Part shown: in pieces, positions 47,753 to 64,000 of the stretch
Numbering within the stretch: the stretch's first letter is position 1
Layout of the letters: every line of letters begins with the position of its first letter
From: Lachnospiraceae bacterium
Lineage (GTDB): Bacteria; Bacillota; Clostridia; Lachnospirales; Lachnospiraceae
Direction of reading: 5' to 3'
Assembly: GCA_902363835.1 (NCBI GenBank)
Contig: CABJBM010000020.1
Span: 58,900 to 122,899, forward strand
Length of the DNA stretch: 64,000 nt
Translations under genes and position numbers: made by a program
The notes under the pieces: model-generated
What the model saw: only the letters and a program-made list of their open reading frames with translations
Told to the model about the DNA's origin: nothing
Databases searched by the model: none

Positions 47753-48343
47753 ATGAATAATTGTAGAAATTGGGACGATAATCGTTGCTACAATGGATGC
47801 GGTTGCTGCGGCCCAACCGGACCGCAAGGGCCTAGAGGCTGCCCCGGACCGCAAGGGCCTAGAGGCTGCCCTGGATCACAAGGGCCTAGAGGCTGCCCCG
47901 GACCAACTGGACCACAGGGACCGCAAGGGCCACAGGGACCAGCCGGACCTCAGGGGCCAGTTGGACCACAAGGACCACAAGGACCGCAAGGTATACAGGG
48001 ACCGACAGGGCCAACAGGTGCAACCGGGGCTACCGGAGCTCAAGGACCAACAGGTGCAACCGGAGCTACCGGAGCTCAAGGACCGACCGGTCCACAGGGA
48101 GCAACCGGAGCTACAGGAGCTCAAGGGCCAACAGGTGCAACCGGTGCTACCGGAGCTCAAGGACCGACCGGTCCACAGGGAGCAACCGGAGCTACAGGAG
48201 CTCAGGGGCCAACAGGGCCAACAGGAGCAACCGGAGCAACAGGAGCAACAGGAGCTCAAGGACCGACTGGTCCACAGGGAGCAACAGGAGCTCAGGGACC
48301 AACTGCTCCGTTCAACTTATGGAACAAAATAACTATCTACTGA
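47753..48343 (+). CDS. Collagen-like protein, first segment of an interrupted gene
   Basis: The start MNNCRNWDDNRCYNGCGCC is a short Cys-rich head, followed by unbroken Gly-X-Y triplets rich in GPQ, GPT, GAT and GAQ up to GAQGPT. The true coding segment ends at 48303; the rest (APFNLWNKITIY and a stop) is encoded by inserted element 1, so the unexcised gene gives a truncated 196-residue protein. The ATG at 47753 is favoured over 47747 by spacing from AGGAGA. Such collagen-like proteins with Cys-rich heads are typical of spore exosporium or cell surface filaments (BclA-like); that location is inferred. Segments 52416-52595 and 63555-64000 continue the same reading frame. Confidence 0.88.
   Translation: MNNCRNWDDNRCYNGCGCCGPTGPQGPRGCPGPQGPRGCPGSQGPRGCPGPTGPQGPQGPQGPAGPQGPVGPQGPQGPQGIQGPTGPTGATGATGAQGPTGATGATGAQGPTGPQGATGATGAQGPTGATGATGAQGPTGPQGATGATGAQGPTGPTGATGATGATGAQGPTGPQGATGAQGPTAPFNLWNKITIY
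48283..48324 (+). other. Left junction (attL) of element 1
   Basis: Core AC at 48302-48303 lies in collagen codons (GGA CCA ACT). On the element side the arm TGCTCCGTTCAACTTATGGA (48304-48323) is the inverted copy, with 17 of 20 matches, of the arm ending at the right junction. AC is not palindromic and has the same orientation at both ends, which predicts excision, not inversion. Confidence 0.8.
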
Positions 48344-48345
48344 AA

Positions 48346-48374
48346 AAAAGCAAGGATCCTGTTTCCTTGCTTTT
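48346..48374 (+). terminator. Intrinsic terminator just inside element 1
   Basis: AAAAGCAAGG (48346-48355) and CCTTGCTTTT (48365-48374) pair perfectly, three bases after the stop codon that the element supplies to the truncated collagen frame. In the inserted state transcription of the collagen gene should stop here. Confidence 0.85.
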
Positions 48375-48375
48375 G

Positions 48376-48835
48376 ATATTATTAAGGGGCTTACCCCTTA
48401 AACCCCAGAGTTTAACGCAAGTATGCCTGCGTGTAGAGAGAAAGAAGCAAGCAGATAATTTGCTTGCTCCCTACACTATAGGCACCCGATATAGCTCGAG
48501 TTGTACTCCTACATTGCTCTATCCCTTTACCGGGTAATTCAATTTATGCTTTTTACCATTCGTTATACCTAGAATATATGACTATCTGTTTTTAGATTCA
48601 GAACCCGAGGTATAATCTATTTTACAAAAAATCAATCAGCCATCACGTTAGTGACTTGACCTTGATTGCAGAAAAAAGAATGCTAAAATGTAATTCCGAA
48701 AGTGAATAAATAATTATCTGTTTTTGAGTTCTTCACCTTCGGTAATACCGTTAAAGCATTCTTTTTTTTGTTGTCAAGGTTGGCGTAGCCGTAAGCCATT
48801 ATATAAAAACAAAAACCATCTTTCTTACTTTAGTT
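48376..48835. other. Non-coding region of element 1 with two related hairpin structures
   Basis: No gene is supported. TAAGGGG/CCCCTTA (48383-48400) and GCAAGCA/TGCTTGC (48447-48467) form short hairpins. Further on, TTATACCT/AGGTATAA (48563-48570, 48608-48615) and GAATGCT/AGCATTC (48678-48684, 48755-48761, followed by eight Ts) each close a loop that contains ATCTGTTTTT. The two may be paralogous small RNA or control structures. Confidence 0.45.
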
Positions 48836-49075
48836 TTATAAATCAAGATTATCAAAGAAATCATTAAAACTGGCATGAAAAATATTTTTAAGTGCTACTA
48901 ACTCACTAACACGAATATTCATTCTATTAGTTTCAATTTTTGCATAAGTGCTTTTTGAAATTTCTAAACCCATTAAGTGCATTTTTGCTATTACTTGGTC
49001 TTGCGTCAATTTTGCTTCTTTTCGTAATTCTTGAATATTACTTCCTATATCCATATCCGGGCGAATCTTCTGCAT
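48836..49075 (-). CDS. XRE-family transcriptional regulator (element 1)
   Basis: The 79-residue protein is a single helix-turn-helix domain: NIQELRKEAKLTQDQVIAKM, LEISKSTYAKIETNRMNIRV, SELVALKNIFHASFNDFF. It is divergent from the DUF6809 gene, and a pair of perfect 20-bp inverted repeats lies in the gap between them, which suggests that it represses both promoters. Confidence 0.82.
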   Translation of the reverse strand: MQKIRPDMDIGSNIQELRKEAKLTQDQVIAKMHLMGLEISKSTYAKIETNRMNIRVSELVALKNIFHASFNDFFDNLDL

Positions 49076-63174: not shown

Positions 63175-63187
63175 AACTTAATTACCA

Positions 63188-63460
63188 TTATAGCCTTTCA
63201 TTTAAACATTCAATCAAATAACGTTCTATACATTCATCAATTGTAAGGTCAGTATCAGCAAAAGACATTTTAACAATGACGTTACCACACTTTACAAAGT
63301 ATGGGTTCTGTGTTGCTTCTAAATAATTCGTTATTCGTTCGTATTTGCCTTTTTTTGGGTCAATATTGATATTGTCAATATCGATTACCTTATTACTGTT
63401 AATTTCCTTTAAATCAATGCTTTTAAACGCTTCTAACTCATGCAAGGTCATTTGTTTCAC
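63188..63460 (-). CDS. Small protein upstream of the element 2 recombinase
   Basis: The 90-residue protein (KQMTLHELEAFKSIDLKEIN, NPYFVKCGNVIVKMSFADTD, LTIDECIERYLIECLNERL) resembles small DUF6870/TnpW-like proteins found beside recombinases on clostridial transposons; the match is from memory and not secure. It is 13 bp before the recombinase start, likely in one transcript, and is a candidate recombination directionality factor. Its place matches the gene at 50603 in element 1. Confidence 0.6.
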   Translation of the reverse strand: MKQMTLHELEAFKSIDLKEINSNKVIDIDNINIDPKKGKYERITNYLEATQNPYFVKCGNVIVKMSFADTDLTIDECIERYLIECLNERL

Positions 63461-63524
63461 CTCTAACTTACTTTAAAACATTTTATGCAAGTTAGATTTA
63501 TACATGATGCTTTGATTAATTATT

Positions 63525-63575
63525 TAAAGGTTTTCCTAAAATATATGTATCAACCGGAGCTACAGGCCCCACCGG
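63525..63575 (+). other. Right junction (attR) of element 2
   Basis: The element arm 63530-63552 ends with GTATCA, then core AC at 63553-63554, then CGGAGCT of the collagen frame. It is the inverse of the arm at 52596-52618 with one mismatch. Confidence 0.85.
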
Positions 63576-64000
63576 ACTTACCGGAGCTACAGGCCCCACC
63601 GGACTTACCGGAGCTACAGGCCCCACCGGACTTACCGGAGCTACAGGCCCCACCGGACTTACTGGCGATACCGGCCCCACTGGAGCTACTGGTCCTACTG
63701 GCCCCATAGGACTTACCGGAGAAACTGGCCCTACTGGAGCTACCGGCTCCACCGGTCCCATAGGACTTACTGGCGATACCGGCCCCACTGGACCAACAGG
63801 CCCCACCGGACTTACCGGTGAAACTGGACCTACTGGAGCCACTGGCTCCACCGGTCCCATAGGACTTACTGGCGATACCGGCCCCATTGGACCAACAGGC
63901 CCCACTGGACTTACTGGTGAAACTGGACCTACTGGCTCCACCGGTCCCATAGGACTTACTGGCGATACCGGCCCCACTGGACCAACAGGCCCCACCGGAC
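63555..64000 (+). pseudogene. Collagen-like gene, third segment, continues past the window
   Basis: From 63555 the plus strand encodes Gly-X-Thr triplets only (GATGPTGLTG repeated, then GDTGPTGPTGPTGLTGETGP) and remains open at 64000. A 27-bp unit is repeated four times at about 63556-63663, followed by longer units with GETGPTGATGSTGPIGLTGD. The phase continues that of the 52416-52595 segment. There is no start codon or ribosome site here, so it is expressed only if the elements are removed. The C-terminal domain is outside the window. Confidence 0.82.

Follow-up and report, generated by a model that had tools for sequence, protein, structure and literature searches.

A collagen-like gene cut at two Thr-Gly codons by two large serine recombinase elements, with predicted in-frame excision, in a Lachnospiraceae bacterium

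Main finding

In a 64,000-nucleotide stretch of a Lachnospiraceae bacterium (GenBank assembly GCA_902363835.1, contig CABJBM010000020.1, positions 58,900 to 122,899 of the forward strand; hereafter, the window), a collagen-like gene is cut at two Thr-Gly codons by two elements, E1 (4,112 bp; 48304-52415, forward strand) and E2 (10,959 bp; 52596-63554, forward strand), each of which encodes its own large serine recombinase (LSR). Our prediction, which we regard as probable, is that each LSR excises its own element at an AC dinucleotide core with in-frame rejoining of the gene, likely in the sporulating mother cell. In our best reading, E1 and E2 are domesticated excision units in spore-surface collagen genes, that is, a variant of the class of elements represented by skin and gin (below).

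A single collagen-like gene in three segments

Scanning the whole window for runs of at least eight Gly-X-Y (GXY) triplets gave hits at 47801-48304, 52408-52596, and 63556-63996 and none elsewhere. Collagen triplet coding halts at 48303, reappears at 52416-52595, and restarts at 63555, exactly where a first-pass annotation made from the sequence alone had placed three collagen segments, and the element sizes given there match the AC-core positions. Segment 1 (47753-48303; Pfam Collagen, E 5.7e-28) starts at an ATG at 47753 or 47747, opens with a Cys-rich leader followed by GXY repeats, and continues in frame into E1 up to a stop at 48343; before excision, the product would be cut short at about 196 residues. 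Segment 2 (52416-52595, 180 bp) and segment 3 (63555-64000), both recognized from their GXY runs and the joined frame, lie like segment 1 on the forward strand, and segment 3 continues beyond the window end, placing the 3' end of the gene outside the window.

When joined at AC, the three segments form an open frame of 393 residues up to the window end, in which each of the 125 triplets has its Gly, just as the in-frame joins proposed earlier would have it. The kept frame shows that there was one original reading frame; it is no evidence of a switch because any precise site-specific insertion gives the frame back on excision. BclA-type exosporium collagen-like proteins have a leader, collagen repeats, and a BclA-like C-terminal domain; the first two are present here, and the third would lie beyond the window end. 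We consider the gene a likely spore-surface gene, in support of its earlier designation as a surface, possibly exosporium, gene.

Attachment sites and recombinases

The AC cores lie at 48302/52414 for E1 and at 52594/63553 for E2. Among all near-joint position pairs with a common dinucleotide, the AC-centered palindrome scored best when attP was rebuilt from the insert ends (17 of 25 positions for E1 and 22 of 25 for E2), and shuffled insert ends reached the observed scores in 0 of 1000 trials for each element. That is, the AC noted previously in the same orientation at all four junctions is the center of the rebuilt palindromes, and both elements have the 2-bp core in the middle of a palindromic attP that is expected for LSRs. 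The sites delimited by the palindrome search, all on the forward strand, are attL of E1 (48302-48324; core AC followed by the P' arm TGCTCCGTTCAACTTATGG), attR of E1 (52393-52415; P arm CCATAAGTTGAAAGGACCT followed by core AC at 52414-52415), attL of E2 (52594-52620; core AC with the P' arm TGATACATGTATTTTAGGAAAACGG), and attR of E2 (63528-63554; P arm AGGTTTTCCTAAAATATATGTATCA with core AC at 63553-63554).

LSR1 of E1 (533 residues; 50787-52388, forward strand) and LSR2 of E2 (553 residues; 61513-63174, reverse strand; with DUF4368) both contain Resolvase, Recombinase, and Zn-ribbon domains. They share 30% identity and thus represent separate lineages, which sustains the view that a single gene was cut by two elements with unrelated recombinases. 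For each element, attL would recombine with attR to release a circle (4,112 bp for E1 and 10,959 bp for E2), and either element could go first. Under the mechanism that we propose, the recombinases, perhaps together with small neighbor proteins, would excise both elements in the mother cell, the full collagen protein would be made late under sigma-K after excision, and the spore line would keep both elements because the mother cell dies.

Uncut relatives and promoter of the collagen genes

We compared the gene with a set of 25 genomes from the genus of L. algidixylanolytica (Lacrimispora group). The first 53 residues matched in 21 of the 25 genomes; the match begins at leader residue 1-3 in 18 genomes and lies in the collagen part only in G004, G015, and G024. 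The frame spans 265 to 1131 residues in 14 of the 18 leader genomes, and the match is at a contig end in the other four (G001, G002, G006, and G010). A wider leader search gave some match in 35 of 299 family genomes. Ten leader regions were fetched, of which two run off contig ends (L256 and L257) and two were missed by the start filter (L261 and L265); six relatives read as single leader-plus-collagen frames (L258, 652 residues; L259, 936; L260, 912; L262, 446; L263, 367; L264, 360). In one of these, L263, the GXY register breaks down toward the end, possibly through a frameshift, and the C-terminal domain of L258, L262, and L264 looks BclA-like by eye, the Pfam BclA_C match (E 0.0094, on a paralogue) being below the cut-off. 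Hence, with respect to the scenario, raised in the first-pass annotation, of relatives carrying the segments as independent genes, we found the opposite: six relatives with one open frame and a common sigma-K-like block.

These data also bear on the idea that the pieces work apart, i.e., that the truncated product has a function of its own and translation of the 3' piece starts within the element. While the stop of segment 1 soon after the joint and the GTG or ATG starts before the 3' pieces in relatives would fit such a scenario, the uncut relatives make one protein and no evident ribosome-binding site was seen by eye before the 3' piece in L001; we consider this explanation very improbable.

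The region upstream of the window gene aligns as a block with that of seven relatives, six of which have AC-N17-CATANNNTA while L241 retains the -10 only; the corresponding sigma-K-like promoter in the window (47620-47647, forward strand) reads GC-N17-CATATTATA. For comparison, passages in PMC3789822 describe a C. difficile sigma-K promoter as CATATAAT with AC, and the collagen-like bclA1-3 genes of the same species as being under positive sigma-K control. The strict motif was found upstream of 5 of 25 collagen genes, compared with 0.6 on average and at most 4 in shuffles (N14-17) and with 4 of 158 non-collagen open reading frames (ORFs) (N15-18); five of the 30 upstream regions collected were left out because their match was to an internal domain. 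A looser motif, CATAYWWT, is present upstream of 19 of the 25 collagen genes (in shuffles, 3.3 on average and 9 at most) and of 16 of 158 non-collagen control ORFs, counts that are post hoc since this motif was picked after viewing the upstream sequences and that include some mutual orthologues among the 25 genes.

E1-type inserts in sister genomes

LSR1 orthologues (72-76% identity) are present in five of the 25 genomes (G001, G002, G010, G023, and G024); in an even sample of 299 family genomes, G002 alone passed E 1e-115. All five orthologues adjoin collagen coding vs. none of 37 other recombinase loci checked within fetched flanks of up to 1.5 kb, a comparison that is not made of independent cases since the five genomes have one ancestral E1-type insert in common. 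In G001, G023, and G024, the gene that is split consists of an N-terminal module, collagen, and a C-terminal domain, and the inserts, of 2,036, 2,036, and 2,035 bp, respectively, carry the recombinase and a 59-residue ORF and have in-frame joints. The same gene in G002 and G010 has a 240-bp insert from which the recombinase part is deleted, with both att sites and the in-frame joints kept; 595-596 bp separate the split gene from the end of an intact recombinase copy upstream. This copy sits in a decayed paralogue in G002 (by eye) and, in G010, has no left att site in the preceding kilobase, with four substitutions allowed. That is, the E1-type unit of the sister genomes looks domesticated, being composed of the recombinase plus one small ORF or of a bare 240-bp insert, and the latter is probably served in trans by the recombinase located elsewhere.

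The ratio of nonsynonymous to synonymous substitution rates (dN/dS) between the two species groups is about 0.08-0.10 for the N-terminal halves and the C-terminal domains of the sister genes (the two closest pairs, with too few changes, give 0.3-0.7 in the N-terminal half), and 0.04-0.12 for LSR1 where not saturated. Both halves of the host gene and the recombinase are, therefore, under purifying selection in the sister genomes. That both parts of the gene have stayed constrained through so long a split is best accounted for by their being joined in some cells.

There are also attR-like extra sites, two in G024 and one in G023, each opening a collagen gene without an N-terminal module that lies upstream of the split gene in the same orientation (L141:2938; L140 reverse strand 227 and 2485). 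Over 23 bases, the extra site of G023 and one of those in G024 match the active-looking site without a difference. All three extra sites may be remnants or, alternatively, partners for the single attL. The latter option relates to phase or cassette variation, whereby stochastic excision or site exchange in growing cells would vary the surface protein, and, in principle, one N-terminal piece could join several of the headless genes. However, the extra sites may be what is left of old inserts, an excision that is not followed by re-insertion would be a one-way event in a growing lineage, and the promoters of the gene family look sporulation-type; we view such variation as quite improbable.

Searching the genomes with the E1 half-site pattern returned six exact matches, all at LSR1 loci, and 13 matches with one mismatch. 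One of the latter (L167) lies in an NlpC-like gene and was taken as a chance match. Another one-mismatch match occurs once per genome, remote from the recombinase, in G001 (C5:309130), G010 (C7:28841), G023 (C2:670822), and G024 (C1:2473123), and is probably part of a conserved gene. We also considered, and rejected, the idea that the recombinase family in general targets collagen genes, given that only two of the 80 recombinase loci kept are in collagen genes (72-74% identity); one of the 80, L078, has a low-complexity run.

E2-type inserts and the case for selfish elements

Relatives of LSR2 at 39-40% identity were found in G001, G002, G009, G023, and G024, two of the five loci having collagen in the flank check. 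A 2,340-bp E2-type insert lies within a collagen gene of G002, and a collagen gene of G009 is interrupted by a 29,836-bp element whose genes include one for a TraG-like ATPase. In G024, an insert of 2,828 bp (L232:537-3355) divides another, very long, collagen gene; the insert has ends of the E2 type and holds three ordinary-looking cargo genes and no recombinase. Its left joint recurs in G023, at the edge of a contig. In these three further collagen genes, the core is AC throughout, the joined gene continues with NGG, and the frame is kept, while the att palindromes of the relatives (15-16 of 24 positions) are weaker than that of the window. The LSR2 relatives of G001, G023, and G024 are constrained (dN/dS of 0.11-0.12).

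The occurrence of E2-type inserts in different genes (the window, G002, G009, and G024) points to repeated insertion and raises the alternative that all these inserts are selfish elements, whose recombinases target the AC-NGG (Thr-Gly) sites that are abundant in collagen repeats, with the host gene being inactivated and excision being rare and unregulated. The TraG-like ATPase of the G009 insert and the cargo plus coupling-protein-like ATPase of E2 would be consistent with this alternative, and collagen paralogues are many, so the loss of one may cost little. On the other hand, five genomes retain E1-type inserts at one site, where both host halves as well as the recombinase are constrained, the inserts that lack the recombinase still have both att sites and the frame, and the G010 recombinase copy, with no recognizable left att site, could not move alone. 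Hence, the E1 series is less well explained by selfish elements than by excision; for E2 taken alone, selfishness may be the better explanation, and for the system as a whole we judge it unlikely.

It is important to note that several observations weigh against developmental excision. The sequences examined showed neither an excised joint nor a circle, and the restored frame is expected from any precise insertion. The -35 of the window gene is GC, not AC; LSR1 is without a clear sporulation promoter, since the sole consensus match in E1 (position 50171, in a dyad) is overlapped by a sigma-A-like promoter of the same quality; and, in the sister genomes, the sequence ahead of the small ORF departs from the sigma-K-like consensus. 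Dating and selection were measured on the sister genes as opposed to the window gene. Further, E2 has mobile-element-like cargo and may simply be mobile, the 29.8-kb element of G009 looks mobile as well, and the LSR2 relatives in G001, G023, and G024 are located about 4.4 kb from a collagen gene, not inside it.

We favor, nonetheless, excision in the mother cell, and a broader version of this model can be put forward tentatively, with less confidence than the excision of E1 and E2 itself: spore-surface collagen genes of the Lacrimispora group might carry DNA-level introns, in the form of inserts that lie between recombinase sites and that dedicated, domesticated, trans-acting serine recombinases remove in the mother cell, with two unrelated recombinase lineages having converged on the same Thr-Gly codon. 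The window gene would then need two excisions, and the attR-headed genes may let one N-terminal piece join alternative collagen pieces.

Relation to known systems

Several known elements provide a reference point. The SPbeta prophage splits the sporulation gene spsM, which is restored by serine-recombinase excision; in the heterocyst, a terminal cell type, the serine recombinase XisF cuts the fdxN insert out of a gene; and the TnpX/TndX-type transposons Tn4451 and Tn5397 use an LSR with a 2-bp target and insert in many sites. With SPbeta, the likeness is in LSR1, for which the PDB chains matched include the SPbeta integrase YokA, whereas LSR1 and LSR2 differ from XisF in scoring 116 and 76 bits, respectively, against the XisF cut-off of 375. 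The best PDB match of LSR1 is TnpX, and LSR2, as in the TnpX/TndX family, has DUF4368; E2 also encodes a DUF6870 protein and a coupling-protein-like ATPase and may be related to Tn4451/Tn5397-type elements (Tn4451 is covered, together with Tn6104, in PMC3158075). Unlike those transposons, the inserts described here were found in collagen genes at Thr-Gly codons.

As in skin, gin, and yin, a recombinase-bearing insert splits a gene, and its removal restores the frame. According to sections of PMC10747680, serine-recombinase excision of skin restores the sporulation gene sigK; skin and SPbeta are prophage-like single inserts, whereas E1 and E2 have no recognized phage genes. The yin element, in the sigma-K-regulated yabG of Clostridium botulinum, is likewise a recombinase-bearing insert with a candidate directionality factor, described in the same sections as unique to one strain, as opposed to the E1-type insert common to five genomes. 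A parallel in being a recombinase-bearing, non-phage insert that splits a (presumed) sporulation gene is gin in gerE of Bacillus cereus ATCC10987, 28.6 kb long with serine recombinases, where, as reported in parts of PMC5595907, excision by GirC with GirX restores the gene. Yet gin is one large insert in a regulator gene, compared to two inserts in one collagen-like gene here, and the inserts of the relatives are 2.0 kb or 240 bp.

More generally, the sporulation gene-splitting elements listed in those sections of PMC10747680 sit in sigK, spsM, spoVFB, gerE, and yabG, i.e., in regulators or enzymes, with one insert each. What is new relative to these is that a structural surface protein is split, twice, and by unrelated recombinases; we found no description of a split collagen gene in the titles and abstract openings returned by our searches of openly licensed papers, which is not proof of absence. 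The sister species also provide a graded series, from a 29.8-kb element with conjugation-type genes, through 11-kb and 4-kb islands and a 2.0-kb recombinase-only unit, to inserts of 240 bp or 2.8 kb whose recombinase is located elsewhere. Should excision be confirmed, this series makes the path from selfish integrase to developmental gene-joining enzyme directly testable, and small recombinases with att pairs and a compact target become available.

Gene content of the elements and neighboring observations

In E1, a 65-residue ORF (50603-50800, forward strand) overlaps the LSR1 start, is kept with LSR1 in five genomes, has no Pfam match, and is a candidate directionality factor. A stand-alone resolvase-domain protein of 110 residues (50213-50545, forward strand; domain E 7.6e-7) is codirectional with this ORF and LSR1 and is absent from the 2.0-kb units of the relatives. 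Two small helix-turn-helix (HTH)-like regulators were recognized by eye on the reverse strand, at 48836-49075 (no informative family match) and 49898-50125. The possible promoter region of the E1 operon (50168-50207, forward strand) is ambiguous, with a sigma-A-like TTGACA-N17-TATCAT overlapping a sigma-K-like AC-N16-CATATCATA, both enclosed by a dyad at 50176-50207; the dyad region (50168-50207) sits between the divergent small HTH-like gene and the E1 operon and may be an operator.

The cargo of E2 comprises, on the reverse strand, polyprenyl synthetase, membrane protein, DUF92, and CDP-alcohol phosphatidyltransferase genes (52763-56103; Pfam) and an M48 (HtpX-like) peptidase (56368-57345; profile match) and, on the forward strand, a choline-binding-repeat protein (60247-61452; Pfam). 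Profile matches at 57233-59213 (reverse strand) correspond to the coupling-protein-like ATPase (57233-58603) and a weak Replic_Relax protein (58596-59213), and no relaxase was recognized among the scanned E2 proteins. A DUF6870 protein of 90 residues (63188-63460, reverse strand; Pfam) adjoins LSR2.

A phage origin was considered for both elements and rejected. Relatives of LSR1 occur at 36 loci in viral_contigs, the best at 45% identity; one of these loci, L268, has a GXY run. For LSR2, viral_contigs held no relative, and the 270 matches in phage records are all below 60% identity; 17 closer relatives (58-75%) exist as protein records without genome context. Short matches to E1 (1-3% of E1) occur in seven plasmid records.

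A further LSR, 37-41% identical to LSR1, is present in 20 of the 25 genomes (L103-L122) with no collagen coding within the fetched flanks; its identification with the skin/sigK recombinase was discarded, as the ORF list around one copy (L145) has no sigma factor. Finally, the region just upstream of the collagen gene in the window (46058-46737) has, by eye, the look of a degraded transposase.

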